Counted from the first letter of the stretch, positions 45,333 to 63,984 are shown. The stretch is DNA of 64,000 bases from an uncultured Methanobrevibacter sp. (GCF_947166415.1 NZ_CAMVEE010000001.1:1-64000); one strand, 5' to 3'. Numbers and translations: made by a program. The notes: generated by a model not told the origin, from the sequence alone.

Positions 45333-48300
45333 TTATTTTACAATTACTTTTATTGTTTTGCTTATTGGCTTATAGTAAGTATTTCCAGCATATTTGACAA
45401 TTGCACTGTAAGTTCGTTTTTTGGACAAATTGGTAAATTTAAATATTGCTTGGCCTTTTGAATTGGTTTTGACTATATAATTCTTACAGTTAACCCTAAT
45501 TGTGACTTTAGCATTTTTCATTATTTGACCTTTATTTGTTTTTAAAACGACTGTGTATTTTTTAACTGCCTTTAAAGTGTATGCAACACTATTTTTAGCT
45601 GTGAATCTTGGAGTTGCTTTAGATACAACAACCTTATTGCTTGCAGATGATTTAAGATAAGTGCCATTGCCATCATAAGTAACCTTCACAGTATAAGTTT
45701 TAGGAACCAAATTGGCTAAAATAGCAAAAGTGGCTTTTCCGTTGGAATTTGTAGTCACTTTTTTTGATTTGCCATTTAAAACCATAGTAAGTTTTGCATT
45801 TGCAATTACATTTCCATCAATATCTTTTAATGTGACAACTAAATTTTTACTGTTGCTATAAACCACTGCTACAGATGGAACTGTGATTTTAGTGGAAATA
45901 GGTGGAGCATTCTTAGTTGTAACAATGATTTGCTGCAATACAGTTAAACCTCCAGAGTTCAACATTATTGAAATGGAATTATTATCCCTAATACTGCTTG
46001 TAATATCTTTTGTATACAAATCAGTTGATTGTGAGCTTCCATTCCATGGATGAGTTTCGCTCTCGCCATTGATCACAACAATTGCTTCACCATCCTGAGC
46101 ACTGTTAGCAAAAATATAAGCAGTAGCATCAATAATATCTGAAGCATCTACATTGATGGCGGAATCTGCGCGAATTGTATTCCTGGTTCCTCCAGAATCG
46201 CCCAATAAATCCGCTCCATTGGAAATGTAAATGTTTTTAATGATATTGCTTCCTGTGGTATTGTACATGTAAATCAGGGTTGTCGGATAAACCGCTACCG
46301 CATCCTTATTCAAATCAAAGACATTATCACCATTTACAATGAAATCTGTGACATCATAAACAACTACTCCATAGCCAGAGTTGGAATTCAGATTGCTTTG
46401 ATCACGAGCAAAGAAAACAGGAGTCAACGCATTATCGTTCAAAGTAACATTGAACATGTCAATATTGTCCTTGCCTCCGCTAGCCCAACAGTAAGATACA
46501 TATATGAACGCCTTAACGAAACTGGAGCTATCAGGTAAAACAACGGAATAATTGATTGAATCATACGAATCTGATGAGCCTGCATAGGTGCCGTTGGTTA
46601 AAATCACAATGTCACCATTGACAGTGATATTGCAAAATGATTCCAAGCTAGTTTCATTATAGGTATCCTTGCCCAAATAACCATTGTACAAAACAGTTGC
46701 TTCACAAGAACTTTCATCAACAAGCTCGTTGGCAAAACTTATTTGAACTTGATAATTAACCTTGTTATAACTGCCTGAACTTCCAAAATATTTAGAAGAA
46801 TCATTAAATTCCCTAATTGTCGAATCAACAATAGTTAAAGTATTTTCTCCATTGCCTAAGTTGATTTCAGTGCAGTTGACACTGATGCCATCAGCCAATA
46901 AATTAATAGAGTATTTGCCTGCGCGATTAGTATTAACGGTAACAGTTAAAGCGTTTGCGAAAGTAGGATAAACAATATTTTTAGTATAGTCTGCGACTTT
47001 AACAGACGAATTCACATTGACAACTTCTTTAGAAACAACAATGATTTGGTGTAATGCTAAAAACATGTTATTGTTGAGAATCAAAGAAATGGAGTTGCTA
47101 TCTCCAACTGTATCCTTAATGTTTTTAGTGTAAACATTGATTTGATTGTCTAAATTTGTATTCCATGCATTATAATCGCTTTCGCCATTAATAACAATAG
47201 TTGCCCTGCCTTCTTTAGCTCCAGCTCCAAAAATATAAGCTGTGGCATCAATACTATCTGATGAATCAACATTTATTATGGAATCCACATGCATAGGATG
47301 GCTAATACCGCCAAAAACTCCTAACAAATCGGCTCCATTGGAAATGTAAATGTCCTTAAGGATGTTGCTGCCGGTAGTATTGTACATGTAAATCAAGGTT
47401 GTCGGATAAACCGCCACCGCATCCTTATTCAAACTAAAGACATTATTTCCATCGATGAGATAATTTCCAGCATCATAAACAACTACTCCATAGCCTGAGT
47501 TGGAATTCAGATTGCTTTGGTCACGAGCAAAGAAAACAGGAGTCAACGCATTATCGTTCAAAGTAACATTGAACATGTCAATATTGTCCTTGCCTCCGCT
47601 AGCCCAACAGTAAGGCACATATATGAACGCTTTAACAATGTTAGAATTGACTGGTATACAAACATCAAAATTAACAGAACCATATGAAGCTGAAGAACCT
47701 GCATAAGTACCATCAGTTAAAACAACAATGTCACCGCTAACTGTAGTATTATAGAATGATTCCAAACTATTTTCATTGTAAGTGTCCTTGCCCAAATAAC
47801 CATTATACAAAACAGTGGCATCGTAAGAAGTTGTATTTATTACTTCATTTGCATATTTCACTTGGACTTGGTAACTAACCTTATCATAAACACCTGAACT
47901 TCCAATATATTTAGCAGATTCATTTAATGGCCTAATGGTTGGGTCAATCAAACTTAAAGAATTAAGACCATTATTCAAAGTTACAACAGTTGAATTGACA
48001 ATGCGCCCATCAGCTAATAAATTAACAACATATCTGCCAGCCGTATTAGTATTAATATCGACATTTAATGTGTTATTTAAATTAGGATAAATAATATTTT
48101 TATTATTATCTGCCATACAAATAGATACATTAGCTTTAGGTTCATAAACTGTTAAAATAGAAACTATTGTCTTAAAAGAAGGACCATAAGCTCCCCCAAC
48201 TGCTTTAAATGTGAAATTCAACTCGTCACCACTAACATAATTTGTTACATCCCATAAGTGATACTGATAATAAGCACCACTAATATAAACATCGTCTTCA

Positions 48301-49190
48301 CTTTCAGAAAAGAGAGGAGCATTGTTAACTTTATACACCGCATCGGCACTTGATAGTGCAACATTAATTAAAGAACTCTTTTTATTAGAAAGATCAATAT
48401 TGCTTAAATTAAAGGAATGAGTTAATCCGTTGACAGTATCGTCTGTCCATGCCTGACCTGCATTAAACCAGTAATTAATCACATCATCGTCACCGTCATC
48501 CCAAGCAACAAACAATGAAACTAACTTAATTCTTCCATCAAAATTTTTTCCGACAATAGGATATGAAAGAACATCTATTGATACGGAAGTTCCATTTAAT
48601 CCCTGAAGAATATCTGTGACATTATAAAAAATCATATAATCAGAATAACATCTGGTAGTGTGGTCATTTACAATATAGTTAACCCCATCAGTTGAAGATG
48701 TGGAAGTCCATAAATATTCGCTGCCAAGTAGCTGTATTCCATTTGCGGTCATTATACTTGTATTTGCATATGATCCATAGTTAGTTCCACCACTTCCTGA
48801 GTAAATATTTACATAAACATAAGCGGATTTGATATTTGCAGTAGATGGAATGTCATAACTGATATTCCCCTTATTACCATTTACAGAATCGCTTTTTCCC
48901 CATGGATGAACACTAGTAAAATCAACACCACCGGAAACTGAACCTGTCTCAATATTTGGCAGCGGGTCACTATTTGTTGCAGAAAAAACTTCCTGATTTA
49001 CACATGAAGATAAATCTTCGGCATCGTCAGCTGTTTCCAATTCCATGTCAAAATCATCTGAACTAGAATTGATTTCCATTAACTCATTATTAAAGGAATC
49101 ATCAGTAATGTTTTCAGCAGAAATTGAACCAATTGTCAGACAAATTAATAAAACTAAAAATAATGTCAAAAAAATGTTTTTATATTTCAT
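45333..49190 (-). CDS. adhesin-like secreted protein with duplicated DUF3344-like modules and C-terminal Ig-like repeats
   Basis: Signal peptide MKYKNIFLTLFLVLLICLTIGSISAE; repeated YNGYLGKDTYNE..SLESF modules; Ig-like C-terminus. Confidence 0.88.
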   Translation of the reverse strand: MKYKNIFLTLFLVLLICLTIGSISAENITDDSFNNELMEINSSSDDFDMELETADDAEDLSSCVNQEVFSATNSDPLPNIETGSVSGGVDFTSVHPWGKSDSVNGNKGNISYDIPSTANIKSAYVYVNIYSGSGGTNYGSYANTSIMTANGIQLLGSEYLWTSTSSTDGVNYIVNDHTTRCYSDYMIFYNVTDILQGLNGTSVSIDVLSYPIVGKNFDGRIKLVSLFVAWDDGDDDVINYWFNAGQAWTDDTVNGLTHSFNLSNIDLSNKKSSLINVALSSADAVYKVNNAPLFSESEDDVYISGAYYQYHLWDVTNYVSGDELNFTFKAVGGAYGPSFKTIVSILTVYEPKANVSICMADNNKNIIYPNLNNTLNVDINTNTAGRYVVNLLADGRIVNSTVVTLNNGLNSLSLIDPTIRPLNESAKYIGSSGVYDKVSYQVQVKYANEVINTTSYDATVLYNGYLGKDTYNENSLESFYNTTVSGDIVVLTDGTYAGSSASYGSVNFDVCIPVNSNIVKAFIYVPYCWASGGKDNIDMFNVTLNDNALTPVFFARDQSNLNSNSGYGVVVYDAGNYLIDGNNVFSLNKDAVAVYPTTLIYMYNTTGSNILKDIYISNGADLLGVFGGISHPMHVDSIINVDSSDSIDATAYIFGAGAKEGRATIVINGESDYNAWNTNLDNQINVYTKNIKDTVGDSNSISLILNNNMFLALHQIIVVSKEVVNVNSSVKVADYTKNIVYPTFANALTVTVNTNRAGKYSINLLADGISVNCTEINLGNGENTLTIVDSTIREFNDSSKYFGSSGSYNKVNYQVQISFANELVDESSCEATVLYNGYLGKDTYNETSLESFCNITVNGDIVILTNGTYAGSSDSYDSINYSVVLPDSSSFVKAFIYVSYCWASGGKDNIDMFNVTLNDNALTPVFFARDQSNLNSNSGYGVVVYDVTDFIVNGDNVFDLNKDAVAVYPTTLIYMYNTTGSNIIKNIYISNGADLLGDSGGTRNTIRADSAINVDASDIIDATAYIFANSAQDGEAIVVINGESETHPWNGSSQSTDLYTKDITSSIRDNNSISIMLNSGGLTVLQQIIVTTKNAPPISTKITVPSVAVVYSNSKNLVVTLKDIDGNVIANAKLTMVLNGKSKKVTTNSNGKATFAILANLVPKTYTVKVTYDGNGTYLKSSASNKVVVSKATPRFTAKNSVAYTLKAVKKYTVVLKTNKGQIMKNAKVTIRVNCKNYIVKTNSKGQAIFKFTNLSKKRTYSAIVKYAGNTYYKPISKTIKVIVK
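46371..46500 (-). repeat. intragenic direct repeat copy A of adhesin 45333-49190 (core of a larger diverged repeat)
   Basis: Nearly identical to 47490-47619, offset 1119 bp (373 codons). Confidence 0.8.
47490..47619 (-). repeat. intragenic direct repeat copy B of adhesin 45333-49190
   Basis: Nearly identical to 46371-46500. Confidence 0.8.
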
Positions 49191-49284: not shown

Positions 49285-52200
49285 TTATTTTGCTATTTTA
49301 ACGCTTTGTGCTACACTGTCCATCCTGTAGGTTACTCTGACTTTGTAGGTTTTTCCTACACCAAGTTTTGCAACCATGTCTGGAGTGAATTTGAATAAAG
49401 CAACACCATTGCTGTTGGTTGTGACCCTGTAGTTTTTCTTCATGAAGTTAACGACTACAGTTTTTCCTTTGATTGGTCCAGTACCTTTCAATGTGATTTT
49501 AAGGGTAGTGGATTTAGCGGATTTTTTGACTGTAGTGACTTTAGGGACATTGACAACACTCTTAAGCACTAAGTTGCCAAGTTTGGTTACTTTATTGTCG
49601 TGTGTAGCAGTTACAGTGTATGTTCCTGGTTTGTATGCTTTTGTAAATTTAGCAATACCATTAGCATCGGTTTTAACTTTCAATTTGTACCTGTCCATGA
49701 TAGTGATGGTTACAGTAGCTTTCTTGATTGGGTTACCATCAGTATCAACAACTTTGATTAGGGATATTCCTTTTTCGGAATCAGATCCCATATCATTGTT
49801 GTAGTAGTAGAAATTAAAGTCATTGACTCTGCTTACTTTGCTAGCTTTAACTACAGCATTAATAGTGGTTGAACTGTTTTTATAGATTTCAGAACCTGCG
49901 TATATGATATCTGTTGTGTAGTTATTGGAGTATACTTTCATGGATGTGAAGTTAGCAGTACCATTTACTACTTCAACAGGATATTCATTACCATTGAATT
50001 TAACAGTTAAATTACCAGTAATCGCTGGGTCTGTATTAATAATAATATGAACAGCAAAACCATCATCTAAAGCACAGACAGTATAATTAGCACCAATTAC
50101 TACTTCTGCAGATTCTGCAATGCTTACTGTTGTAATATTATCGATAGAAGCATATTTTTCATCACCTGTGTAAGTAACGGTGAAAGTGTAATTGCCACTA
50201 GCTAAATTGTCTGGACCAACAATGACCGCACTACCGTCAACAACAGTTGCAGTGTAATTAACACCATCAATACTTACAAATACAATACCCCCATTGGCAT
50301 CGGTAGGTAAAGTTACTGTGATATTAACCGCACTGCCTAATGGTGTGGAATTTCCTGCATCAAGCAACATTTCATAGTTGGTTACTTTGGATACAGTGAT
50401 TGCATAAGTTGCATTTTCTGATGCTTTATAATATCCATTACCATCAAATTGAACAGTAATATTATGGTCTCCGATAGTTAAATCCTCAGCAAGGATAATG
50501 AAACTACCTTCACCATCAACAACAGTTAAAACACCATAATCGGTTATTAAAACACCATCAATCCAAAGACTGTAAGTACCATTAACATCAGGATCAACAC
50601 TGACAGCAACATCCAAATTATCTCCAACAAAGATTTCACTGCCATTAACAATATCGGTTGAAATAGCTGTAGGTGTTAATTTTTTACTTACAACTAAAAC
50701 TTGTTGATATGCAACAACAGTTGATGAACTTGGACTAGTTATAAACATTGCAACATTGTTTTGTGAAATTCCGCTAGTTACATTGAAGATGTATGGACAG
50801 CATTCCTTATCTGAAGAAGATGGGTATGCATCTGAAACATACAAATCGTTGAAGCTTAAATCAGCATCATTATAACCACCCGATCCACCGAATGCGTATA
50901 ATGTTGCACTATCTAAATTAGTTAAGTCAATGTCGTTGAAGTTGATAACTGTTTTGAGCAATTCGTCATATCCTAGCTTATTATAATATGGATAGAATAC
51001 ATCACATACGTCACTGAAGTATACATCTGTAATTGAATCGCTATCAGTCATATTATATAATACAAATAATGTGGAAGGATATAATGCGCAATTGCCTGTT
51101 TTGTTTATAACAAAAGAGTTAACATCATTGACATTGTAAAGTTCAGTTACATCAAACACTACAAGACCGTAATTATATGGGCCGTAGTATCCTAAATTAC
51201 CCCTGTCCATTTCATAGCTGATATTTTGATTTAAAATGTCACGATCATTAAATGTTAAGTTCCAACCATTTGGATAATAAGAAGTATCCCAATTATATGC
51301 GAAATATAATAAGACTTTTACAATTTCAGCACCTTCCGGTGTTTCAATGTTCCAAGTCTCGTTTCTAAATCTTATGAATTGGTCTGCATAGTAACTTGCA
51401 TCGTGAGTAGCGACAATAATATCACCATTAATAGTGTAATTTCTATTAATAATATTATCATGACCACCGTAAGCATAGCTTTTGTTGAAATAACCGTCAT
51501 ATGCAAGTATTTTATCAGCAGATACTGTTGAAATTATTTCGCCAGCGTATTTTAAATTGAAGGTGAATTTAATCTTGTGGTTTTGAGCCTCAGGCCATAC
51601 GGTTTCTTCAGTTATTGGACGTACAGTAGGATCAGTCAATGCAATTGAAGTGGCGCCTGTGGCTAATGAATCAATAGTGTAATTTGCTAACAATTCACCA
51701 GTTTCATTAGAATACACTTCTAAAACTAAATCTTCAACATCACTTCCACCGTTGTTTGTTAATTTAACAGTGAATGTATTATTAACTCCAGCAAAAATAC
51801 CATTAGACCATTGTGTTGTAACACTACTAATTACCACATCAGGACGTGGGGCTGTGAAGTTCACTGTTTCAGCTACTGAATATAAGTTAACGGTAACTGA
51901 ACCGTCACCAAAGCTTTCTGGAGCGTATGTTGTTGAAGCAATTCCTTTTACGAGCACAGTACTTTCCGGAGTGACATTACCGTTGATTACGGTGAATGTT
52001 AAAGGAACATTTGCCGGAAGTGAATCGACATCAACTTGTGCACCATTCTGATTTTTGGTTATGTCAATTGTGATTACTGCTGAATCCCCTAATGGAACCT
52101 CTTCCTTATCGGCGCTGACATCTAATACAAGATAAGCATTATGATAAAATGCCTTGTTATAAATAGTATTGAAATCAGGAGTGTTTGTTCCCCAATAACA

Positions 52201-55200
52201 GTTTTCCAGTGTGAATACATTTGCCTTATTACCGTACTGGCGTAAAGCATATCCGTTGGCATCAGTATTGTTTATGAAGAAACAGTAGCTGCCTGTTGCA
52301 GATCCGCTGTTTAAATTGCCGAACAATGCTCCACCTTGGGTTGCATAGTTATTTATAAATACATTTCCTGTTCCGAGAGTGATCTTATTACTTCCAACAG
52401 TACCTCTACCATTGGATGTGAGTCCTCTATTGGAATCAAATAGATTATTCTTACCAATGACTATAGGAGGGTTTGATGAACCTATTGCAGAACCTACATG
52501 GGATGCGCTGTTATTGATGAATTTATTGTTGTTTCCAATGGTTATTCCTGAGTTGGCAGCTGTACCGGAACTTAATCCGATAGCTCCACCCATATTGCCT
52601 GCGTAGTTATTGATGAAGGTAACATTATTGATGTTGTTAATGTAACCTTGAGTTGAACCTATCGCTCCGCCGGCGCTGTTGGCGCGGGAGTTTGAAATTA
52701 CAGAATCGGAAATGTTAACAGCTCCGCCGTTGGCTACGAAAATAGCTCCACCCTGAGCTGTGCTGTAACCTTCAGTTAATGTTAAATTGCAAATGGTTAA
52801 AGTGAATCCGTTATTTACATTGAATATTCTTTTTGCATTGTTACCTGAAATAACAGCCTCTATGCTTTGACCAATGATTTTGATGTTTTTAGTGACGGCA
52901 ATACCTGTTGCAGGTGTTGAATCATCCAAATAAACTACTCCATTGGCTACATAGATAATACCATTATTGTCAACAATTTTAACTGCTTTTTCAATAGTTT
53001 TAACAGCACTGTCCCAGCTAGTACCGGAATTACTGTTTGAACCGTGTTCATAATCTACATAAACGACTTCGGTTGAAATCACGCTTTCAGGAGTTAGGGA
53101 AATTGTTTCTTTAATTCCTAAAATGTCAACTGTAACGGAATTGTTGCCAACACCTGTGATTGTATATTCGACTTCACCGTCACGGCCGTTTACAAGGGTT
53201 ATGGAATCTTTATTTAATGTTCCGTTTACTGGAACAAAAGTCACTGGAAGGTCTATTACATTTGTATTTCCGCCTTCATTAGTGAATAAGTTAATATTAA
53301 CTGTAGCGACATCTCCTACTTCAAGACCTTTGGCATACATTGTCAGGTTGAGGTATAGATATGAACCTGCTTGTTCTGCGTTTGTTAAGTTTAATTCTGT
53401 AGGAGTTAGGTCTTTTGTTGTGTCGTTTTGACCCCACCAGTTGTTTTCTAAGGTAGCGTTTGCCGGTGCTTTAATGTTGACCGCTCCGAGACCGTCTAGA
53501 ATGATGGAATTGGTTAAGGTCAGATAGCCGTCGTATTGTTTGATGGATCTGCCGTTGTTGTCTTTGGTTACTTTGTTGCCGTAGAATTTTGAACGGTCGA
53601 CTATTGTTTGGCCGTATGCGCAGATTCCTCCGCCGACAGCATAGTTACCGGTGTTGTAAACTTGGTTGTTTGTGAATACTGAATTTGAAACGTTTAATAA
53701 GATGTTTCCTTTTTCAGCATTGACAGCGCCGCTGTATACTGCGGAATTTCCTTCGAAATATGAATTTTTAATTGTTGTGGTTGTTGCTTTCAAGTTGACA
53801 GCCGCTCCATATGTACTGCCGGTTGAACCTGCAGTGTTGTTGATGAATTGGCAGTTGTCAATTGTTAAAGTAGTTTTGTTAGCCCATATGGCTGCGCCAC
53901 GTTTATCGGAAGCGTTTGATACGTCACCATTTATGAATATCAAATTGGACAATAATACATTTTCTGCTTGGATTTTGAATATTCTTCCAGCGTTTCTGGC
54001 ATCGATTACAACATTGTTACCCATACCCATGATAGTGACGTTTTTAAGAACGTTTAAACCGTCAACATCAACATTATCCAAATAATTGACACCGTCAGCA
54101 ATGTGAATAATGGCATTATCATCAACTACACTTAATGCATGAGCAATGGTTTTGAAAGGAGCGGATGCGGTAGTACCAAGGTAATCGTCTGAACCTTTGG
54201 CATAATCAACATAAACTTCAGTTAAAACAGGCTCATTGGCAAGCTCGGTTGCAACCAATAAAACCACATTGGCTTTATATGACGGAGTATATAATCCTAC
54301 ATCGGAACATGTGAAGAAGAAACTGGTATCCTGTCCTTTATTGAATAAAGGAGCAATATTATCCCAGTTCATAAATAAATAGTAATCCCCGCCAACAACA
54401 GAAGTAGGTTGGGCATTTACATTGTTAATCTTGAATGCACCGATTTGTGAAGACAGACCAACGCTTGTTATGGTAATATTGTTATCTTTACCTGAATAGC
54501 CGCTGGTATCTATGTTGAAACTTTCGCTGCCTTGTGTCCACAACTGACCTGCATTCAACCAGTAGGTGTAATTATCATCATCACCGTCATCATATGCAAA
54601 TAATAAACTGATTAATTTAATTCTTCCGTCAAATTGTAAATCTGAAATTTTTGTATTTTTAACTCCAATATTTATTGTATCTCCAGGGTTTAGGTTACTG
54701 ACTTTATCGGTAATGTCAAACACCATCTGGTAATCTGAATATTGTCTGGTTGTGTGGCGATTGAAACCATATACATTAGGGTCGTTAGTGAAGGATGGGA
54801 AACCGTCCATTCTCAAGGTATCGAATGCCAGTACTTCAAAACCATTTGTAGTATTAAGGGTTACATTGGAGTAAAGACCATATGTCTGAGCGCCGCTTCC
54901 GGAATAATCATTAATGATGACTATTACAGATTTGATGTTTGTAACATTTTCAGGAATAACATAAACAAGCTGGCTGGTAGCGGCCCATGGATTGACGGCA
55001 ACATATTCCACATTACCTGAAACAACACCGCTGTCGATTTCAACCATCTTATCTACAAGTTGGCCTACAGGGTAAGCCTCTTCAAATGTTAATTCGAGTT
55101 TATCTGTAATGCCTAAAACATTTACGGATATTGAATTTAAACCTTCTTTTGTGCTTGTGAATGCAACATCACCTTTACCGTTTACAAGTGTTAAAGTATA

Positions 55201-56898
55201 TTCATCAAAGGTTCCGTCATCTGATGAAACTGTTGCAGGAACATCAATTAAACAAGCAGCATCCTGAGAAACCAATTTAACATCAATAGTAATAGGTTTG
55301 CCTGTTTCAAAGGTTGTAGCTGCAGTTGATAAGCTAAGGTATGCGTATGAACCTGCTTGTTCTGCGTTTGTTAAGTTTAATTCTGTAGGAGTTAGGTCTT
55401 TTGTTGTGTCGTTTTGACCCCACCAGTTGTTTTCTAAGGTAGCGTTTGCCGGTGCTTTAATGTTGACCGCTCCGAGACCGTCTAGAATGATGGAATTGGT
55501 TAAGGTCAGATAGCCGTCGTATTGTTTGATGGATCTGCCGTTGTTGTCTTTGGTTACTTTGTTGCCGTAGAATTTTGAACGGTCGACTATTGTTTGGCCG
55601 TATGCGCAGATTCCTCCGCCGACAGCATAGTTACCGGTGTTGTAAACTTGGTTGTTTGTGAATACTGAATTTGAAACGTTTAATAAGATGTTTCCTTTTT
55701 CAGCATTGACAGCGCCGCTGTATACTGCGGAATTTCCTTCGAAATATGAATTTTTAATTGTTGTGGTTGTTGCTTTCAAGTTGACAGCCGCTCCATATGT
55801 ACTGCCGGTTGAACCTGCAGTGTTGTTGATGAATTGGCAGTTGTCAATTGTTAAAGTAGTTTTGTTAGCCCATATGGCTGCGCCACGTTTATCGGAAGCG
55901 TTTGATACGTCACCATTTATGAATATCAAATTGGACAATAATACATTTTCTGCTTGGATTTTGAATATTCTTCCGGCATTTCTGGCATCGATTACAACAT
56001 TGTTACCCATACCTATAATGGTAACGTTTTTAAGAACTTCTAATCCATTAACATCAGCATCATCCAAGTAATTTACACCATCAGCAATGTAAATAATAGC
56101 ATTGTCTTCAACAGCTGTTAACGCATGACCAATAGTTTTGAATGCTGTTTCTGCAGTGACACCATCATTAGCATCGTCCCCGTTAGCATAATCAACGTAT
56201 GCTTCAGTTAAGGTTTGAGGTTCCGGTGTGTTGGAATTGACGGTGATGAAAACCCATGAATCAACAACTTCAGGGCCACCATACCCATCAAGATATTCAC
56301 CTGAATATTCCGGACCTTCTTCAGCCCTGAATAAAATCTTATAAGGTGTATCGCTAGCAGATAATTTTGAAGAATCAACAGTATAGGTTAATCTATGGTT
56401 ATTTAAATCTTTATATGCAGTAAAACCCCCATTTATATAGACAGTTAAAGGAAAATCCGGTCCCCCAGGATCGCTGCCGCTGCTGTCTACTAAAAAACCG
56501 GTGATTGTTACACTTTCTCCCTCATTAATAGTAAAATCATCTTGATCAAAGTCTATATAAGCTGAAGAAGTAGAGGTCTCATATCCCAACGTATCATCGT
56601 TACTTTCAGCAGCTATACCCCTATTAGCATAACTGCTTTCATTCTCATCACTTATAACGGATACATCGCCGTATCCGTCATCTTGATTTTCAATTGAAAT
56701 AGAATCATCATCATTATAAACAGCCAAATCATTAGTCGAATTATCCAGATCTTCAGCATAAATCGAAGAAACAGATATTACTAACACAAAGATTAAGGTC
56801 AATAATAATAACGAATCTTTAATCTTTTTTTGCAAAAAATTCCTCCTTTCAATTAATAAACAAAGTGAATTAATAAATATTAATAAAAAATTATTCAC
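49285..56898 (-). CDS. giant adhesin-like protein (~2500 aa): parallel beta-helix repeats and Ig-like repeats
   Basis: Signal peptide (KKIKDSLLLLTLIFVLVISVSSIYAE), YVDYANGDDANDGVTAETAFKTIGHAL right-handed beta-helix entry motif three times, Ig-like domains; actual start likely nearer 56835. Confidence 0.9.
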   Translation of the reverse strand: MNNFLLIFINSLCLLIERRNFLQKKIKDSLLLLTLIFVLVISVSSIYAEDLDNSTNDLAVYNDDDSISIENQDDGYGDVSVISDENESSYANRGIAAESNDDTLGYETSTSSAYIDFDQDDFTINEGESVTITGFLVDSSGSDPGGPDFPLTVYINGGFTAYKDLNNHRLTYTVDSSKLSASDTPYKILFRAEEGPEYSGEYLDGYGGPEVVDSWVFITVNSNTPEPQTLTEAYVDYANGDDANDGVTAETAFKTIGHALTAVEDNAIIYIADGVNYLDDADVNGLEVLKNVTIIGMGNNVVIDARNAGRIFKIQAENVLLSNLIFINGDVSNASDKRGAAIWANKTTLTIDNCQFINNTAGSTGSTYGAAVNLKATTTTIKNSYFEGNSAVYSGAVNAEKGNILLNVSNSVFTNNQVYNTGNYAVGGGICAYGQTIVDRSKFYGNKVTKDNNGRSIKQYDGYLTLTNSIILDGLGAVNIKAPANATLENNWWGQNDTTKDLTPTELNLTNAEQAGSYAYLSLSTAATTFETGKPITIDVKLVSQDAACLIDVPATVSSDDGTFDEYTLTLVNGKGDVAFTSTKEGLNSISVNVLGITDKLELTFEEAYPVGQLVDKMVEIDSGVVSGNVEYVAVNPWAATSQLVYVIPENVTNIKSVIVIINDYSGSGAQTYGLYSNVTLNTTNGFEVLAFDTLRMDGFPSFTNDPNVYGFNRHTTRQYSDYQMVFDITDKVSNLNPGDTINIGVKNTKISDLQFDGRIKLISLLFAYDDGDDDNYTYWLNAGQLWTQGSESFNIDTSGYSGKDNNITITSVGLSSQIGAFKINNVNAQPTSVVGGDYYLFMNWDNIAPLFNKGQDTSFFFTCSDVGLYTPSYKANVVLLVATELANEPVLTEVYVDYAKGSDDYLGTTASAPFKTIAHALSVVDDNAIIHIADGVNYLDNVDVDGLNVLKNVTIMGMGNNVVIDARNAGRIFKIQAENVLLSNLIFINGDVSNASDKRGAAIWANKTTLTIDNCQFINNTAGSTGSTYGAAVNLKATTTTIKNSYFEGNSAVYSGAVNAEKGNILLNVSNSVFTNNQVYNTGNYAVGGGICAYGQTIVDRSKFYGNKVTKDNNGRSIKQYDGYLTLTNSIILDGLGAVNIKAPANATLENNWWGQNDTTKDLTPTELNLTNAEQAGSYLYLNLTMYAKGLEVGDVATVNINLFTNEGGNTNVIDLPVTFVPVNGTLNKDSITLVNGRDGEVEYTITGVGNNSVTVDILGIKETISLTPESVISTEVVYVDYEHGSNSNSGTSWDSAVKTIEKAVKIVDNNGIIYVANGVVYLDDSTPATGIAVTKNIKIIGQSIEAVISGNNAKRIFNVNNGFTLTICNLTLTEGYSTAQGGAIFVANGGAVNISDSVISNSRANSAGGAIGSTQGYINNINNVTFINNYAGNMGGAIGLSSGTAANSGITIGNNNKFINNSASHVGSAIGSSNPPIVIGKNNLFDSNRGLTSNGRGTVGSNKITLGTGNVFINNYATQGGALFGNLNSGSATGSYCFFINNTDANGYALRQYGNKANVFTLENCYWGTNTPDFNTIYNKAFYHNAYLVLDVSADKEEVPLGDSAVITIDITKNQNGAQVDVDSLPANVPLTFTVINGNVTPESTVLVKGIASTTYAPESFGDGSVTVNLYSVAETVNFTAPRPDVVISSVTTQWSNGIFAGVNNTFTVKLTNNGGSDVEDLVLEVYSNETGELLANYTIDSLATGATSIALTDPTVRPITEETVWPEAQNHKIKFTFNLKYAGEIISTVSADKILAYDGYFNKSYAYGGHDNIINRNYTINGDIIVATHDASYYADQFIRFRNETWNIETPEGAEIVKVLLYFAYNWDTSYYPNGWNLTFNDRDILNQNISYEMDRGNLGYYGPYNYGLVVFDVTELYNVNDVNSFVINKTGNCALYPSTLFVLYNMTDSDSITDVYFSDVCDVFYPYYNKLGYDELLKTVINFNDIDLTNLDSATLYAFGGSGGYNDADLSFNDLYVSDAYPSSSDKECCPYIFNVTSGISQNNVAMFITSPSSSTVVAYQQVLVVSKKLTPTAISTDIVNGSEIFVGDNLDVAVSVDPDVNGTYSLWIDGVLITDYGVLTVVDGEGSFIILAEDLTIGDHNITVQFDGNGYYKASENATYAITVSKVTNYEMLLDAGNSTPLGSAVNITVTLPTDANGGIVFVSIDGVNYTATVVDGSAVIVGPDNLASGNYTFTVTYTGDEKYASIDNITTVSIAESAEVVIGANYTVCALDDGFAVHIIINTDPAITGNLTVKFNGNEYPVEVVNGTANFTSMKVYSNNYTTDIIYAGSEIYKNSSTTINAVVKASKVSRVNDFNFYYYNNDMGSDSEKGISLIKVVDTDGNPIKKATVTITIMDRYKLKVKTDANGIAKFTKAYKPGTYTVTATHDNKVTKLGNLVLKSVVNVPKVTTVKKSAKSTTLKITLKGTGPIKGKTVVVNFMKKNYRVTTNSNGVALFKFTPDMVAKLGVGKTYKVRVTYRMDSVAQSVKIAK
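53360..53988 (-). repeat. 629-bp direct repeat, copy A
   Basis: Base-by-base reading appears identical to 55346-55974. Confidence 0.93.
55346..55974 (-). repeat. 629-bp direct repeat, copy B
   Basis: Apparently identical to 53360-53988, spacing 1986 bp (662 codons). Confidence 0.93.
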
Positions 56899-57073: not shown

Positions 57074-57406
57074 TCATCCTTCAACCATGATTAATTTTCC
57101 CGTGGAAGGATCTTTATAGACTTTTCCCATTTCCATATATCCCTGTCCAGAACTGTCAGTTGTATCAGGTGTTTCGTTTAAGACTTGCCCTTCACTAACT
57201 TCAGTGACTTGCTGTGAGTCTTGAATGGCCTGGTTTTGGCTTTGGGAATTATCCTGGAACACTACACTTTGCATATTCCAACTGATTACAACAAAAATCA
57301 ACAGCCCTACTGCAATAACAAGCATTGCATCAACAAGATTTGTTGTTCCAGCCATCGGGTCTTCTTCCCCTTCTGCAAATCTCTTCTTATTTTTCTCTCT
57401 AACCAT
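57074..57406 (-). CDS. DUF2149 family, ExbD-like small membrane protein
   Basis: EEDPMAGTTNLVDAMLVIAVGLLIFVVISW; one TM with embedded Asp, followed by extracytoplasmic tail. Confidence 0.82.
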   Translation of the reverse strand: MVREKNKKRFAEGEEDPMAGTTNLVDAMLVIAVGLLIFVVISWNMQSVVFQDNSQSQNQAIQDSQQVTEVSEGQVLNETPDTTDSSGQGYMEMGKVYKDPSTGKLIMVEG

Positions 57407-57415
57407 TTAAACACC

Positions 57416-58060
57416 CTAATTTTTCAATTTATCCAATATGACATCAGTCAATGCGTCCAAATCAGACAAATATTCTTCATACCATCTGCGTCTTACTTTA
57501 GATACAAAGTATGCGACTGCACCAGAACCGATACCAACAACAGTGGTGTCAAATGCCACTATAATTGCATTTGCCAATGTATTGACATCACCTGCGCCCA
57601 ATGCCGCAAGACCAGGACCCATCGGTATTAAAGTTCCCATCAACCCTAATGTCGGACCGATACGGGTTACGATATCTGTTTTCTCGATTTTTTTTGCAAA
57701 TTTGTTTTCTTCTGCTTCAATCAATTTTCTGGCTAAAGTATGCCTGGCATCTTCAGACAATGTGTTTGCACGCAAAACCTTGATTAAAATCACTTTTTGA
57801 GACTCGTATATTCTAGAATTTTTAACAATATTTAAAATTTCGTCATAAGATGAGGCATTTGATATGGAATAAATAATCTTTTCAAGTGAATCTACTGAAA
57901 TCTTCTTTCTAGAGGTATATTCAGATACCAACCCTCCCAATGTGATTACTGCAAAAATTGCAAAAATGACCAAAAATATTATAACTGGAATTTGTAAGCT
58001 CTGGGAAATCATATTCAACCCAGAAGTAATAATTTCACTGCCCGGAACTGTTGTAACCAT
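57416..58060 (-). CDS. MotA/TolQ/ExbB proton channel family protein
   Basis: VTRIGPTLGLMGTLIPMGPGLAALGAGDVNTLANAIIVAFDTTVVGIGSGAVAYFVSKVRRRWYEEYLSDLD. Confidence 0.93.
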   Translation of the reverse strand: MVTTVPGSEIITSGLNMISQSLQIPVIIFLVIFAIFAVITLGGLVSEYTSRKKISVDSLEKIIYSISNASSYDEILNIVKNSRIYESQKVILIKVLRANTLSEDARHTLARKLIEAEENKFAKKIEKTDIVTRIGPTLGLMGTLIPMGPGLAALGAGDVNTLANAIIVAFDTTVVGIGSGAVAYFVSKVRRRWYEEYLSDLDALTDVILDKLKN

Positions 58061-58066
58061 AAATAA

Positions 58067-58774
58067 TCACCTGAAATTAGTATTTTTCTTTGAAATTATT
58101 CCACCGATTGCCATGAAAGCCAATATAACGATTATTGCAATGCTCACATAATCAACAGAAGCTATTGATATGGCATCCATAGGATTTTGGATCATGGCTG
58201 TGATGTTTGGAAGGAATAATGCTGACAATAAGAAGTAAATTCCTAAAAAGAACATGAAATTACCTAAAACTATTGGATAAGGCTTATTTATAAATTTTAT
58301 TAGGAAATTTGATGCGAAATAGGTTGCCACAATAGTTAAAACCAATGCCAAAGCCACTATGATACTTAAATTCATCAGCCCCAATCCAATTGTAGGAGCT
58401 ACCAACAAAATACTAACAAGAATTGACCCAAAACAACATGGACATGGTGCAATAACCGCCATGCATGTTGCTGCAGTTGTATTTCTTTCAAATACCTTAT
58501 ATTCCCTAATTGTAAATATACCTGCCAATATCATAATGACTGCCATGATTAAAAAGAATTCAAAATTATAGGAATAAATCAAATCAGTAATTTGAGTAGT
58601 GTAAAATGAAGCAATTTCAGTTAAAATTAAAACACCTCCACCATATCCTATTGAAACCAGGAAAAGATATCTTTTAGACATGTTTGCTAATCCAGTAGCT
58701 AAACCCAATTTAATTCCAAAGATTAAAACCGCCGATAAAATACCTAATTGCCATAATAAACTAATTGCATCCAT
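58067..58774 (-). CDS. DUF2162-type multi-pass membrane protein (putative metal transporter)
   Basis: ~6-7 TM segments, intramembrane CMAVIAPCPCCFGSILVSILL motif. Confidence 0.75.
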   Translation of the reverse strand: MDAISLLWQLGILSAVLIFGIKLGLATGLANMSKRYLFLVSIGYGGGVLILTEIASFYTTQITDLIYSYNFEFFLIMAVIMILAGIFTIREYKVFERNTTAATCMAVIAPCPCCFGSILVSILLVAPTIGLGLMNLSIIVALALVLTIVATYFASNFLIKFINKPYPIVLGNFMFFLGIYFLLSALFLPNITAMIQNPMDAISIASVDYVSIAIIVILAFMAIGGIISKKNTNFR

Positions 58775-58782
58775 TTAAACAC

Positions 58783-61700
58783 CTAAATAACTTTATCATT
58801 ATATAATTTATCCAAATCTTTAATTTTCTCTTCCTCATCCTTATTTCTAAAGTAACCTAAAGCAATGACGCCTATTAAACATAAAATTCCAAGCACTGCA
58901 ATTATTGACAGACCCACTTCGCTTGCAGATTGAGATGTGAGTGGATTTATTTCTACCGCTTTTTTAACATCTGCGCCTTCTGAACTGGTGCCACCTATTT
59001 CACATGTTTGACCGTCGACACCAACTGATTGTCCTTCGGAAACTCCTGTTTGACCTTCAGCACCTACACTTGAAGCCACTTGACCTTGTGAGTTGCCATC
59101 AGTTATTGAATTTCCATTGCTTTGTGAGTTGCTTGAACTTTTTGAATTGCTTTGTGAATTTTTTGTTGTTGAATTTGAAGTTATTGTATTTGAAGACTGT
59201 GATCCTTCAACCGGATCTTGAGTAGACGCCTCGCTATTGGAAGGGTCTTCCGTATTTTCAGGAGGGACGTTTTGAGTATTGTTTAAAAATACTGGATTTT
59301 GAGTCGCCTCATACAATTTTGGCAATAGTTGAGCTAAAATATCTGGATTTACATATTGCATAGCCCATTGCATCATTGCAATATTACCGCAACTACAATC
59401 ACAGCAAGCAACACCATTCTGAACAGTGGCCTGAGCCCAGGTGTTTGCGAGATTTCTTATAGTTGCATCATTCGCATTCCAGTACCCATCTTTAATGGAA
59501 GTTAACATTGTTCCACTCATTGAAATAAGTGAATATGCATTGTTTCCACTTTTCAACCAGTCTGTAACGCCTAAATTATATTTATCATTATAATAGGTAT
59601 CATAAACTCTCTCCCATAACTGATTAGTTACGGATGTAGGCCTTGTAACTTGCCAACCGAATAAATCGTTGACAAATTTATTTGAGATATAACGGGCCCC
59701 GCTGTAACCTTCTTCCATCATTCCTTTAATCCATTCTGGATTATCATATCTTGCAGCAAATTCCTGATACATTACTTCTTCCAATGGAGCAATATATGGA
59801 TTGTTCCTATTTGCATACATCAATACGTTAAATTTAGGGGTTTTACCAGAGATTTTCTCAACAGCCATTGATAAACCTCCCCAATAATCAAAGAAGTCAT
59901 CATTATCCAGCACACCATATTGATTTGTATTACGGCTAGCCACAATGGTATCTGAATTGGACAGAGCTCTTAAGAATACTAAAGGATTGGTATCTCCCCA
60001 ATAATTTTTAGAGTACATGTTACCCATTCTTCCCAAATAGAAATCTGCCAATTCATCAGTATCGTTCCAAGTCCAAGACATTGATACCAATTTGGATATT
60101 CCTGCACCATAATCACCATTAGGCGGTGCAAATACTCTTGTAATTGCGCATTCTCCTGCATAAGTCGCATTATAACCAATGCTCAAATAGTACAAGCAAT
60201 CCTCGAGCCAATGTTTAGCAACATAATTGTCTTCCAAAGACTCCCTATAATCACCGCTTACACCGTAATATCCAATTCCTTCCATTATATAGTCAATAGC
60301 TTCCCTTACTTGAGGACCATACTCGCTATTCATTAAAGAATTGTTATTGATGATTGTTAAGTAGGACCTTGCAAGTGCAACTCTAAATGCATTGTCCAAT
60401 ATGATTGTTTGAGAAGAGTATAAATCTCTGAAAAGACCGCTTGTAATTACTGTCACATCAATTCTTTTTTTAGCCCAACCTTCCGGACGGACTAAATCAA
60501 CCAATTTTACAAATTCTGGTATAGGTTTTATCTTTTTACCAGATGTGGATTCATCATCATGATCATGATTATTATCAATTCCTGCACTTGGAGAATCTGT
60601 CCAAACAGGTTTCATACCCAACAAATAAAGAACTGAGGCAACTAAAGCACCATTATCCCTTGCAGTTTCAACACACCATATTCCCATAATGATTTTTTCG
60701 GTTGTGTCATTCAAATCTGATAAAGTTAAAAGCGCTAAAGTCTTAGCATATTCATATGCTTCCTGAGAAGGAAGCTCACAGGATTGGTCCTGGAACATGT
60801 TCCTACCAGTCGGCATGATACTAGGGTTTGCTATAATTTCCCCGCCTTCACTGATTGGGATATATTTACCATTCAAACCATCAAGCATTGCATTTAACTC
60901 TGCGTCGATACTTTCATTGATTAAATTTAAATAACTTTTAGCTAAATTTAAACAGGCGAGTAAGTTGAAAGTATTGAAATTTGAGTTTGAATTTATCAGT
61001 AAATTGTATACTGTTTCAACATCCCAATAAATTAGAGCCTTACATATATCATAACTCTTATTCAATACAAATTCTCTATCGATAGCTGATAAGCCATCAT
61101 AATTTGAAGAGAAGTAACATTTTGAAATTTCATCAAATAAGTTGGTTTCACCCTTGTTATTGTCCATGGTAAAGTCAAATGACATCATGACTGAAACTGT
61201 CGATGCCAAATCCTTTTCGTTCCAATATTTACCAATTGCATGAAGACCTAATGGATATATTGTAGACTGAAGCGATTTTAAAAACTTATTGACTTTATTT
61301 ACCAAATCGTCTGAAGTCAAGTTTAGAACTTCATCCTTGGACAAGCCAAGATTCATTGAATAGTCATTATCAACAATCAAATTGCGCAATTCATTGCTTA
61401 TCCTGTCTTTGGAATTTTGATTGTTTGAATCTAAATATTGGTCGACTAATCTTGCGGCAAGTGTTAAATTGCCATATAACTGAGTATAAGCTAGTGGAGA
61501 GGTTAAGTGAGAAATCAATACGGCGAACCCTCTTCTTTTAGCTTGAATAGCTTCTCCTAAACCATCTGTGATATAGAAATATAATTGAGGAACCTCACCT
61601 ACAACAACAGATCCGTAATCTGTTGAAGACAAAAGAATTTCCTTGCCTGGCAGCCACTCATGAGTTGCGTGCCTTCCAGTAAATACCATTGCATCAGAGT

Positions 61701-63984
61701 AGTAGGTTTGCATATAATAATATGCCGCCAAATATTGGTGTGTAGGGGCAACGGCAGTACAATGATAGAGATTCTCAACATCTGACTCCCATCCCCTTTG
61801 AGGTTCCGGAGCAATGAAAACATTGCCGAATTTCAAACCAGGAATTACAAAGTAGCCAATATCGTTTCTAGTGACTACCATGACATTGCCTGGAGATTCT
61901 CCCCAACCGGTTAATCCGTCTATATTCAAATTCTTGAATTCTTCATAATACTGTAAAAATAACTGATAATAAGTATCATTGGAAGTTTCAGTGAATCTTT
62001 TTAATGATTGGACTATATTCTTTAATATTTGAGTTGCTTCAGACGCCTTTTCTTCAGGAAGCAAAGCAACGATTTGGTTGTACCAATCATCAATTGTATC
62101 TCCAATTGTCACGGTATAGTTCAATTCAACAGCCCGTTTTGCTAACTCACCAATATATGGGATAGGTCCTTCTCTTACTTGGATTTTAACGATTTCAGGT
62201 AATGAATTAAACCAATTGATGTATTCATCAACAGGCAAAAGAACAACATCGGACTGATTTGCCAATTTTTCAAGCTCACCAGGAGCCCAAGTGGCTACAT
62301 TTATTCCGCATTTCAACATTAAGTTTTCAAGTTCTGTGACATTTGAAGGTAAGTTTTGAACATTATATCCAGCATATTTCAATGCATAAAGCATGTTATA
62401 AATACTTGTGATAGTATCCAAATAACTTGAACCGATATTTTGTTTTCCTGGAGGATAGTTATAGTAGATTAATGAAATGAGTTTTTCACTATTTGCCTTG
62501 TACTGCAAATCAACCCATGAATCAATCCTTTCACATAACAATTCAATGTTTCCTGTGTGAGGAACATAAGTTGCTATTCTGGCACCGGTGACATTTGAGA
62601 TATAGCTCGCAGATCCTCCAATGAATGTTGCATCAATGATTCCTTGAGCCTCGGCAATAGCTACATGCCACCATTTGTCACTTTTGCTAGAAGTTAAACC
62701 AGTAGTTCCCAATTCCCATTCTTCATTAGAAACGTAATCGGAATGAACAGCTCTGAATACCGGAACGCCAAGCTCTTCGAAGAATCTGGTGGTTGTAGTG
62801 AAATTTTCTCCCCCAACCCCATAAGCTACAACGGAAATGATGGCGTCAACATAAATATTATAATTGGATGAATTGGCTATGAAACCTGAAACATCGGTTC
62901 CTGCACTGGTAAATGATTCAACCATGACTTTCAACTGTTCTGTAGTAGCTCCAGCTGCAAAAACTGGAATGACATTGTATCCTTTATATTCTAGATAATT
63001 TATGATTTCTATGCATGGATGCAACTGTGATGGAACATACATTGTACTTTCCAAAATACCGATTGTGCGGGCATTTGGATTATAAAATTCGGCCATATAC
63101 TCATCTAATGAATACCATTTATCTCTAAATATACCATATGGTCGGGAATCCGTATATGATGGGTCTTTAGCAATTACATCCAATCCAAAATAATTCAATA
63201 CATACAATATCTGATTTTTCAGATTTTCCTTATCATGAATGTCCTTATAGATAACCATCTTATTAAACATTGGATTGAAATCAAAACCATACTCATTAAT
63301 GGTCGCTAAAACATTATCATATGCAGTTCCTCTTTTTGTGCCTTCCAAATATGAAATCAAACGTTCATTAGGACATGAATCAAATATTTTATTATAGTTT
63401 AGAGTGGAATGCCTAACCAATCCGATTGAAGAAGAACCAGAATTTAAATTCCCAACAGGAGCTTCCAAAATTAAAAATAACTTTTTATCAGACAAACTAG
63501 GATTCTTATTCAAAACACTTGTTAAAACAGCATCAACATCTGTACTTACCCATTCTCCAATGAATCCATCGCAATTTGCCAATAAATCAGTGAATTCACT
63601 TTCATCCATTTCCTTAACTTGAATACCACTTCTTACAACCAGATTAACATTACTTAAGTCATACTCATCAAATAATTCCCTACAAGAGGAGTCTAAAATA
63701 TTTGTACCGGGGTTATCACTTACAATAAGAATAGTTATATTCTGTGATGATGAGATTTCTTCATTATTCTGTGATGAATTTACATCACTAATTTGAATAT
63801 CATTTAGCTCATTAGTGACTTCCAAAGCTTCATCCGATTGGAAATTATTGCCTATTTCTTCATCAATTACATTTACAATGCTTGATTTGTCATCTATCTC
63901 GATGCCAGTTTCATTATTTGACTGGGCAAAAGCAACTTGAGATGCGAGCAATAGAATAAATACAAGCAATATCAGTGAAGTCAT
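58783..63984 (-). CDS. CobN/HmuS-like (magnesium/cobalt chelatase large-subunit superfamily) secreted membrane-anchored protein; true 5' end probably outside window
   Basis: N-terminal signal sequence; AMVFTGRHATHEWLPGKEILLSSTDYGSVVVGEVPQLYFYITDGLGEAIQAKRRGFAVLISHLTSPL; SWTWNDTDELADFYLGRMGNMYSKNYWGDTNP; C-terminal Ser/Asn-rich linker and TM anchor. Confidence 0.9.
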   Translation of the reverse strand: MTSLILLVFILLLASQVAFAQSNNETGIEIDDKSSIVNVIDEEIGNNFQSDEALEVTNELNDIQISDVNSSQNNEEISSSQNITILIVSDNPGTNILDSSCRELFDEYDLSNVNLVVRSGIQVKEMDESEFTDLLANCDGFIGEWVSTDVDAVLTSVLNKNPSLSDKKLFLILEAPVGNLNSGSSSIGLVRHSTLNYNKIFDSCPNERLISYLEGTKRGTAYDNVLATINEYGFDFNPMFNKMVIYKDIHDKENLKNQILYVLNYFGLDVIAKDPSYTDSRPYGIFRDKWYSLDEYMAEFYNPNARTIGILESTMYVPSQLHPCIEIINYLEYKGYNVIPVFAAGATTEQLKVMVESFTSAGTDVSGFIANSSNYNIYVDAIISVVAYGVGGENFTTTTRFFEELGVPVFRAVHSDYVSNEEWELGTTGLTSSKSDKWWHVAIAEAQGIIDATFIGGSASYISNVTGARIATYVPHTGNIELLCERIDSWVDLQYKANSEKLISLIYYNYPPGKQNIGSSYLDTITSIYNMLYALKYAGYNVQNLPSNVTELENLMLKCGINVATWAPGELEKLANQSDVVLLPVDEYINWFNSLPEIVKIQVREGPIPYIGELAKRAVELNYTVTIGDTIDDWYNQIVALLPEEKASEATQILKNIVQSLKRFTETSNDTYYQLFLQYYEEFKNLNIDGLTGWGESPGNVMVVTRNDIGYFVIPGLKFGNVFIAPEPQRGWESDVENLYHCTAVAPTHQYLAAYYYMQTYYSDAMVFTGRHATHEWLPGKEILLSSTDYGSVVVGEVPQLYFYITDGLGEAIQAKRRGFAVLISHLTSPLAYTQLYGNLTLAARLVDQYLDSNNQNSKDRISNELRNLIVDNDYSMNLGLSKDEVLNLTSDDLVNKVNKFLKSLQSTIYPLGLHAIGKYWNEKDLASTVSVMMSFDFTMDNNKGETNLFDEISKCYFSSNYDGLSAIDREFVLNKSYDICKALIYWDVETVYNLLINSNSNFNTFNLLACLNLAKSYLNLINESIDAELNAMLDGLNGKYIPISEGGEIIANPSIMPTGRNMFQDQSCELPSQEAYEYAKTLALLTLSDLNDTTEKIIMGIWCVETARDNGALVASVLYLLGMKPVWTDSPSAGIDNNHDHDDESTSGKKIKPIPEFVKLVDLVRPEGWAKKRIDVTVITSGLFRDLYSSQTIILDNAFRVALARSYLTIINNNSLMNSEYGPQVREAIDYIMEGIGYYGVSGDYRESLEDNYVAKHWLEDCLYYLSIGYNATYAGECAITRVFAPPNGDYGAGISKLVSMSWTWNDTDELADFYLGRMGNMYSKNYWGDTNPLVFLRALSNSDTIVASRNTNQYGVLDNDDFFDYWGGLSMAVEKISGKTPKFNVLMYANRNNPYIAPLEEVMYQEFAARYDNPEWIKGMMEEGYSGARYISNKFVNDLFGWQVTRPTSVTNQLWERVYDTYYNDKYNLGVTDWLKSGNNAYSLISMSGTMLTSIKDGYWNANDATIRNLANTWAQATVQNGVACCDCSCGNIAMMQWAMQYVNPDILAQLLPKLYEATQNPVFLNNTQNVPPENTEDPSNSEASTQDPVEGSQSSNTITSNSTTKNSQSNSKSSSNSQSNGNSITDGNSQGQVASSVGAEGQTGVSEGQSVGVDGQTCEIGGTSSEGADVKKAVEINPLTSQSASEVGLSIIAVLGILCLIGVIALGYFRNKDEEEKIKDLDKLYNDKVI

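Follow-up and report, generated by a model that had tools for sequence, protein, structure and literature searches.

In the class I Mg chelatase, AAA+ partners spend about 15 ATP per round of chelation (PMC7689651). For the CobN-like HmuS of the Bacteroidota hmu operon, the purified protein lacking its transmembrane segments and HmuTUV was found not to need ATP and to stall at 1-2 turnovers, and HmuUV was depicted as the power source of HmuR; the text of the same paper is silent on the C-x4-C motif considered below (PMC12583661). Related gene sets are PA1922-PA1925 of Pseudomonas aeruginosa, which belong to the Zur regulon (PMC4542158, PMC9431628), and the TBDT-DUF2162-ExbB-DUF2149-CobN cobamide locus of Geobacter lovleyi, the role of which is unknown (PMC3403914). 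Among archaea, no role is known for HmuS/CobN homologues and complete hmu operons are absent (PMC12583661, PMC10846266), DUF2149 has already been noted as TolQ-linked in methanogens (PMC9425974), and a survey of adhesins goes no further than to list DUF3344 as a domain with ambiguous function (PMC9210967).

The window analysed here (the whole stretch of 64,000 nucleotides from an uncultured Methanobrevibacter sp.) carries four minus-strand genes, designated S, T, U and V in the order of transcription (Table 1). A first-pass annotation had described them as lying nearly end to end and as members of the CobN-like, DUF2162, MotA/TolQ/ExbB and DUF2149 families; the gaps were confirmed to be 8 bp (S/T), 6 bp (T/U) and 9 bp (U/V), and Pfam agrees for all four families. 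The host assembly is a draft of 1.72 Mb in 62 contigs, and the contig with the cluster (105 kb) extends past the window. Since a better in-frame ATG, preceded within a few bases by AAGGGG, is present at contig position 64005, S is probably cut by the edge of the window; its true start is probably at this position, 21 bp past 63984 and outside the window, giving a protein of 1740 aa. The upstream neighbour of S is an unrelated coiled-coil gene transcribed divergently, and below 57074 the same-strand run continues with two DUF3344 genes, the gaps being 175 and 94 bp. The inverted repeats detected upstream of S were AT-rich and of no note, and promoter and terminator scans gave nothing beyond shuffled sequence.

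Table 1. Features of the cluster and of its same-strand neighbours (positions counted from the first nucleotide of the window)
Feature	Position	Strand	Evidence
Whole S-T-U-V cluster	57074-63984	-	4 genes, spacing 6-9 bp
S, predicted envelope-anchored CobN/ChlH-type chelatase homologue	58783..63984	-	PF02514 4.1e-222; 1733 aa as read
Signal sequence of S (MTSLILLVFILLLASQVAFAQ)	63922..63984	-	hydrophobicity and pattern
Superfamily-wide catalytic His of S, His772 in GRHAT, equivalent to HmuS His538	61669..61671	-	alignment
Asp of S where HmuS has its specific His1209; LDNDDFFDYWGG against LSLDHxxEFMGG	59896..59898	-	alignment
CCDCSC Cys cluster (C-x4-C) of S, ahead of the C-terminal linker	59389..59406	-	
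C-terminal transmembrane anchor of S	58849..58926	-	
T, DUF2162 multi-spanning membrane protein	58067..58774	-	PF09930 8.5e-62
CPCC motif of T	58433..58444	-	
U, MotA/TolQ/ExbB-family channel subunit	57416..58060	-	PF01618 1.4e-10
V, DUF2149, single transmembrane segment, very short outer domain	57074..57406	-	PF09919 3.3e-22
DUF3344 giant surface protein, 2537 aa, probable partner	49285-56898	-	PF11824 8.1e-42; linkage
Second DUF3344 surface protein, 1285 aa, three DUF3344 stretches, probable partner	45333-49190	-	PF11824 1.1e-87; linkage

DUF2162, CobN, DUF2149 and ExbB were each detected in at least 36 of 41 related genomes. For 53 of the 54 strong DUF2162 genes in this set, ExbB and then DUF2149 follow on the same strand (the remaining one is at a contig end), and ExbB precedes DUF2149 in all 76 cases of the latter. 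A CobN-like gene lies directly upstream of DUF2162 for at least 32 of the 54 genes and in at least 31 of 36 genomes, these counts of pairing being lower bounds. In a sample of the phylum, DUF2149 was found in 136 of 152 genomes (19 of 20 genera) and a CobN-like protein in 119. Families across the order share the S-T-U-V gene arrangement, which is not due to chance; the gene-order comparison proposed with the first-pass annotation has in this respect found conserved co-occurrence in archaeal relatives, the four genes being a conserved unit. T-U-V is also found without CobN, and the host genome itself carries a second T-U-V without CobN on contig C8 and a second anchored CobN-like gene at the end of contig C45, not adjacent to each other. 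One f2 genome (G031:C1:985055-987406) has next to T-U-V an S with nine in-frame stops, which has either decayed or been misassembled; at L151 (G354:C4) three tandem anchored CobN-likes precede T and U, and two of the three are separated by a short His-rich exported protein; and the CobN family has multiplied in the f2/f3 genomes (G025-G037), each with many copies (as many as 20 match pieces), both cytoplasmic and anchored.

S is composed of an N-terminal signal, the chelatase body, a low-complexity linker and a C-terminal transmembrane helix; because of the signal, the linker and the helix, it is predicted to be anchored in the envelope with its body outside. Its closest PDB match is HmuS (9d26, 2.6e-96), and in the alignment the equivalent of HmuS His538 (HFG(T/A)HG) is kept. 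The residues specific to HmuS are different: His1209 and Glu1212 are both Asp in S, the haem-site Met79 and His254 are replaced by Ser and Ala in an N-terminal part where the alignment is less sure, and the Met-rich insertion (domain IV) is absent, with 0 Met in 55 residues against 15-30 in HmuS of Bacteroides and Prevotella. Given the lack of Met79, His254, His1209 and the Met-rich insertion, S is a chelatase homologue but not HmuS.

In a tree of 55 CobN-like sequences (742 columns, LG+G4, SH-aLRT), all extracytoplasmic members including HmuS form one group (SH-aLRT 98) that excludes cytoplasmic CobN, archaeal cytoplasmic CobN-likes and BchH, and S clusters with other archaeal S-T-U-V proteins plus a Marinobacter protein (98), with the reservation that composition varies between rows, the search was quick and the deep branches are tentative. 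Common ancestry of S with HmuS and the other envelope-anchored CobN-likes is shown at the level of sequence comparison. The CobN-likes linked to U-V have both a signal and a C-terminal transmembrane segment and cytoplasmic CobN has neither; some of the cytoplasmic CobN adjoin ChlI/D-like or AAA/VWA genes, and the flanks of S contain no adjoining gene for an AAA+/VWA partner of the CobS/CobT type. The Marinobacter relative has a signal, no C-terminal transmembrane segment and no U-V alongside. By hand count, C-x4-C is present in 47 of 58 extracytoplasmic CobN-likes versus 0 of 16 cytoplasmic ones (Fisher 1.9e-9, a value inflated by relatedness).

The CPCC motif was kept in all 25 T proteins whose locus includes a CobN-like gene, and is absent only from 5, none with CobN beside them. 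T is a putative permease or redox/metal relay; the AlphaFold model of T alone was unusable (pLDDT 49), and T has no recognised fold. A strict relay pair of CPCC in T and C-x4-C in S, for redox or metal, was rejected, because HmuS has C-x4-C but its T is without CPCC. No homology was detectable between T and Bacteroides HmuT (hhalign probability 0.3%), the Pfam DUF2162 profile gave no match to HmuT, and a fold search of the HmuT model against PDB gave nothing below E 0.2. The resemblance to the hmu operon drawn in the first-pass annotation thus stands for S, U, V and the gene order, and not for T; the core that is near-universal in an order of methanogens is S-T-U-V in which T is of another kind. 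In Bacteroidota at large, DUF2149 was detected in only 1 of 198 sampled genomes, hmu-type V being sparse there. A NicO/DsbD_2-like gene occupies the place of T in a hydrogenase-maturation (nickel) cluster of Runella. DUF2162 gave no mention in the open-access PMC literature, an earlier account of the archaeal cluster being possible elsewhere, and a scan of viral contigs gave no relatives of T.

U passes the PF01618 cut-off (41.5 vs 22.9 bits), matches MotA/ExbB structures by profile, carries the conserved motifs GLMGT and TT with an invariant Thr143, and by itself retrieves HmuU proteins of Bacteroidota (about 1e-22 to 1e-31). V, initially called ExbD-like, keeps in support of that name Asp26 (NLVD) in its single transmembrane segment, which is near-invariant in the alignment (Glu in Runella), and its constant place beside ExbB; its profile similarity to ExbD/TolR is marginal (TolR E 0.6; hhalign to one ExbD 0.8%). 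By the NLVD motif and the position, V is a candidate ExbD/TolR-like partner of U. The juxtaposition of a motor of the proton-motive-force type and an extracytoplasmic chelatase homologue, which had been pointed out at the start, is real and recurrent.

Of the 98 DUF3344 stretches in the 41 relatives, 84 have a CobN-like or T-U-V gene no more than 15 kb away, in every case with matching strand, against a chance expectation of about 3% (roughly estimated, assuming two anchors per 2 Mb); the others, all but one, are on contigs without a listed anchor, mostly small. In family f3, DUF3344 is even fused N-terminally to S (L045, DUF3344 at 32-306 and CobN to 1949). Because some f2 genomes such as G025 keep S-T-U-V without a DUF3344 match, DUF3344 is a frequent but not an obligate partner of S-T-U-V. 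This tie between DUF3344 and the CobN-like/T-U-V system is new here. The larger of the two DUF3344 proteins in the window contains a long near-identical internal duplication (e.g. the 139-aa antisense frames at 53666-54085 and 55652-56071), which suggests a recent event.

The metal context was searched for in 20 V-centred regions, taken mostly without regard to neighbours. L154 carries on one strand genes for an FmdE-domain protein, a His-rich protein, CbiM (Co/Ni transporter subunit), a small exported protein, S, T, U and V; L162 and L163 have this set minus S (FmdE/CbiM/T/U/V), L152 and L155 are similar, and in L043, picked earlier than the 20 regions, CbiM adjoins T-U-V. Since CbiM occurs in only about 2-3 copies per genome, its repeated adjacency is unlikely to be fortuitous; these runs sit in other genera or other T-U-V copies. 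On C20 of the host genome (L037 4593-9915), a solute-binding protein and ABC transporter of the BtuF/FecCD type with ATPase, FmdE with a zinc finger and a very divergent T-like gene form a single run with U and V. The bacterial contexts are cobamide (Geobacter, Marinobacter) and nickel (Runella), together with, by other work, zinc (P. aeruginosa, PMC4542158) and haem iron (Bacteroidota). The theme common to the loci is acquisition of a metal or metallo-tetrapyrrole, the metal varying; bacterial contexts that span Fe, Zn, Ni and Co do not fix the metal in this organism. The DUF3344 partners, the CbiM link and the single clade of anchored CobN apart from AAA+-driven CobN had been missed in the first-pass annotation.

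From the observed anatomy, gene order, ancestry with HmuS, DUF3344 linkage and, in other genera, CbiM linkage, we infer the substrate, the direction of the reaction and the coupling of the motor. Our preferred reading, held with confidence somewhat short of even, is that S-T-U-V serves the surface acquisition of cobalt or nickel, most likely in tetrapyrroles, with the U-V motor driving S and/or T. The DUF3344 surface proteins would present or capture the Co/Ni compound (cobamides, F430 debris or other complexes), and S would bind it in the chelatase cavity outside the cell and either strip the metal or hand the complex on. A gradient of H+ or Na+ would power U-V to cycle S and/or T, and T would carry electrons or the freed product through the membrane. 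Outside the membrane ATP is lacking, and U-V would substitute for the AAA+ partners (ChlI/D, CobS/T), which an enzyme outside the cell could not use. HmuS would be expected to stall if the parts it lacks serve to reset it, although the authors of that work list other possible causes (PMC12583661). U-V as a general TonB energiser was rejected, because on the Geobacter lovleyi plasmid, where T-U-V adjoins CobN, a complete ExbB-ExbD-TonB is present separately, and because archaea have U-V without an outer membrane. Taken together, these points lead us to propose U-V as the driver of S and/or T. Against this speaks that truncated HmuS turns over, if slowly, without the motor, so that U-V is not strictly required for dechelation.

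Import of the intact corrinoid or F430, with S as a non-catalytic binding protein and U-V powering T in TonB fashion across the cytoplasmic membrane, would agree with the context of the Marinobacter protein (GRH(A/S)T), which among non-archaeal sequences is closest to S in the tree and lies between BtuFCD and late cobamide genes, and with the link of U-V to the BtuC-like permease locus in the host genome. We consider it unlikely on balance, in view of the catalytic His of the superfamily retained in S, the small size of DUF2162 for a carrier of such large substrates, and the fact that HmuS does take metal out of haem (PMC12583661). A true haem-iron system as in Bacteroides, in which S would dechelate host or dietary haem and the iron would go to Feo, is improbable: HmuS is the closest structure, the gene order is identical and the CobN-like (BtuS) proteins of M. 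barkeri respond to the iron source (PMC10846266), but S lacks the four HmuS features, T differs from HmuT, HmuY/HmuR are not there, and the linked runs carry CbiM rather than iron genes. Haem, one of the candidate substrates named in the first-pass annotation, is accordingly not favoured and was rejected as first choice on the HmuS-defining residues missing from S; Co/Ni is more likely than haem.

The locking of DUF3344 genes to the cluster and the occurrence of T-U-V without CobN could also mean that the U-V(-T) motor serves the DUF3344 proteins (assembly, tension or secretion) and that S is an accessory, but the bacterial U-V-CobN loci show no DUF3344 gene and f2 genomes such as G025 have lost no part of S-T-U-V where DUF3344 is without a match, making this quite improbable. 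A reading of S as an ordinary cobaltochelatase that serves cobamide synthesis and was wrongly predicted to be exported is hardly credible: its NCBIfam matches are to CobN models, yet it falls far under their equivalog cut-offs (744 vs 1619 bits; 436 vs 822 bits), has signal and transmembrane helix and no adjoining CobS/CobT gene, and Methanobacteriales own the early cobalt chelatase CbiX (PMC3087415). The ordinary CobN assignment was rejected on the topology and the cut-offs.

The association of the genes is strong, and the mechanism is what sequence comparison leads us to propose. If acquisition of cobalt or nickel by S-T-U-V is true, it accounts for surface uptake of their compounds by these methanogens, DUF2162, DUF2149 and DUF3344 gain one common role, and the service of HmuTUV to HmuS, as well as the substitute for ATP partners outside the cytoplasm, becomes testable via motor mutants. 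A wider generalisation, possible though doubtful at present, is that class I chelatase chemistry can be powered in a third manner: envelope CobN-type (de)chelatases driven by an ion-gradient motor of ExbB-like U and DUF2149 V rather than ATP-dependent AAA+ rings would make up an ancient archaeal-bacterial clade for various metals, with DUF3344 as the archaeal receptor.

Among the known systems, CobNST and ChlHID have the chelatase family and the conserved His in common with S, but are cytoplasmic and driven by ATP through AAA+ partners, without signal, anchor or U-V. ExbB-ExbD, TolQ-TolR and MotA-MotB are comparable in that U belongs to the MotA/TolQ/ExbB family and V has the transmembrane Asp at the matching place, but V is very short and without TonB, a peptidoglycan-binding domain or a long outer domain, and the host is an archaeon that lacks an outer membrane. 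P. aeruginosa PA1922-PA1925 combine a CobN-like gene, an 'ExbD / proton channel family' gene and DUF2149 in one operon, but with an outer-membrane receptor, zinc control and no T reported. The pGLOV01 locus of Geobacter (Trichlorobacter) lovleyi has all four families, including T with CPVC and an anchored CobN with C-x4-C, but in the order T-U-V-S and together with TonB-dependent receptors, separate ExbBD-TonB and cobamide genes. Compared with Bacteroidota hmuSTUV, the archaeal T is DUF2162 with CPCC and not HmuT, S is without the haem-site residues, His1209 and the Met-rich insertion of HmuS, and the flanks contain neither HmuY nor the TonB-dependent HmuR, DUF3344 genes being present instead of a receptor. 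Both systems nevertheless share a CobN-like S with hydrophobic anchors at both ends, an ExbB-family U and a DUF2149 V in the identical order S-T-U-V, and HmuS belongs to the same envelope-anchored clade as S.
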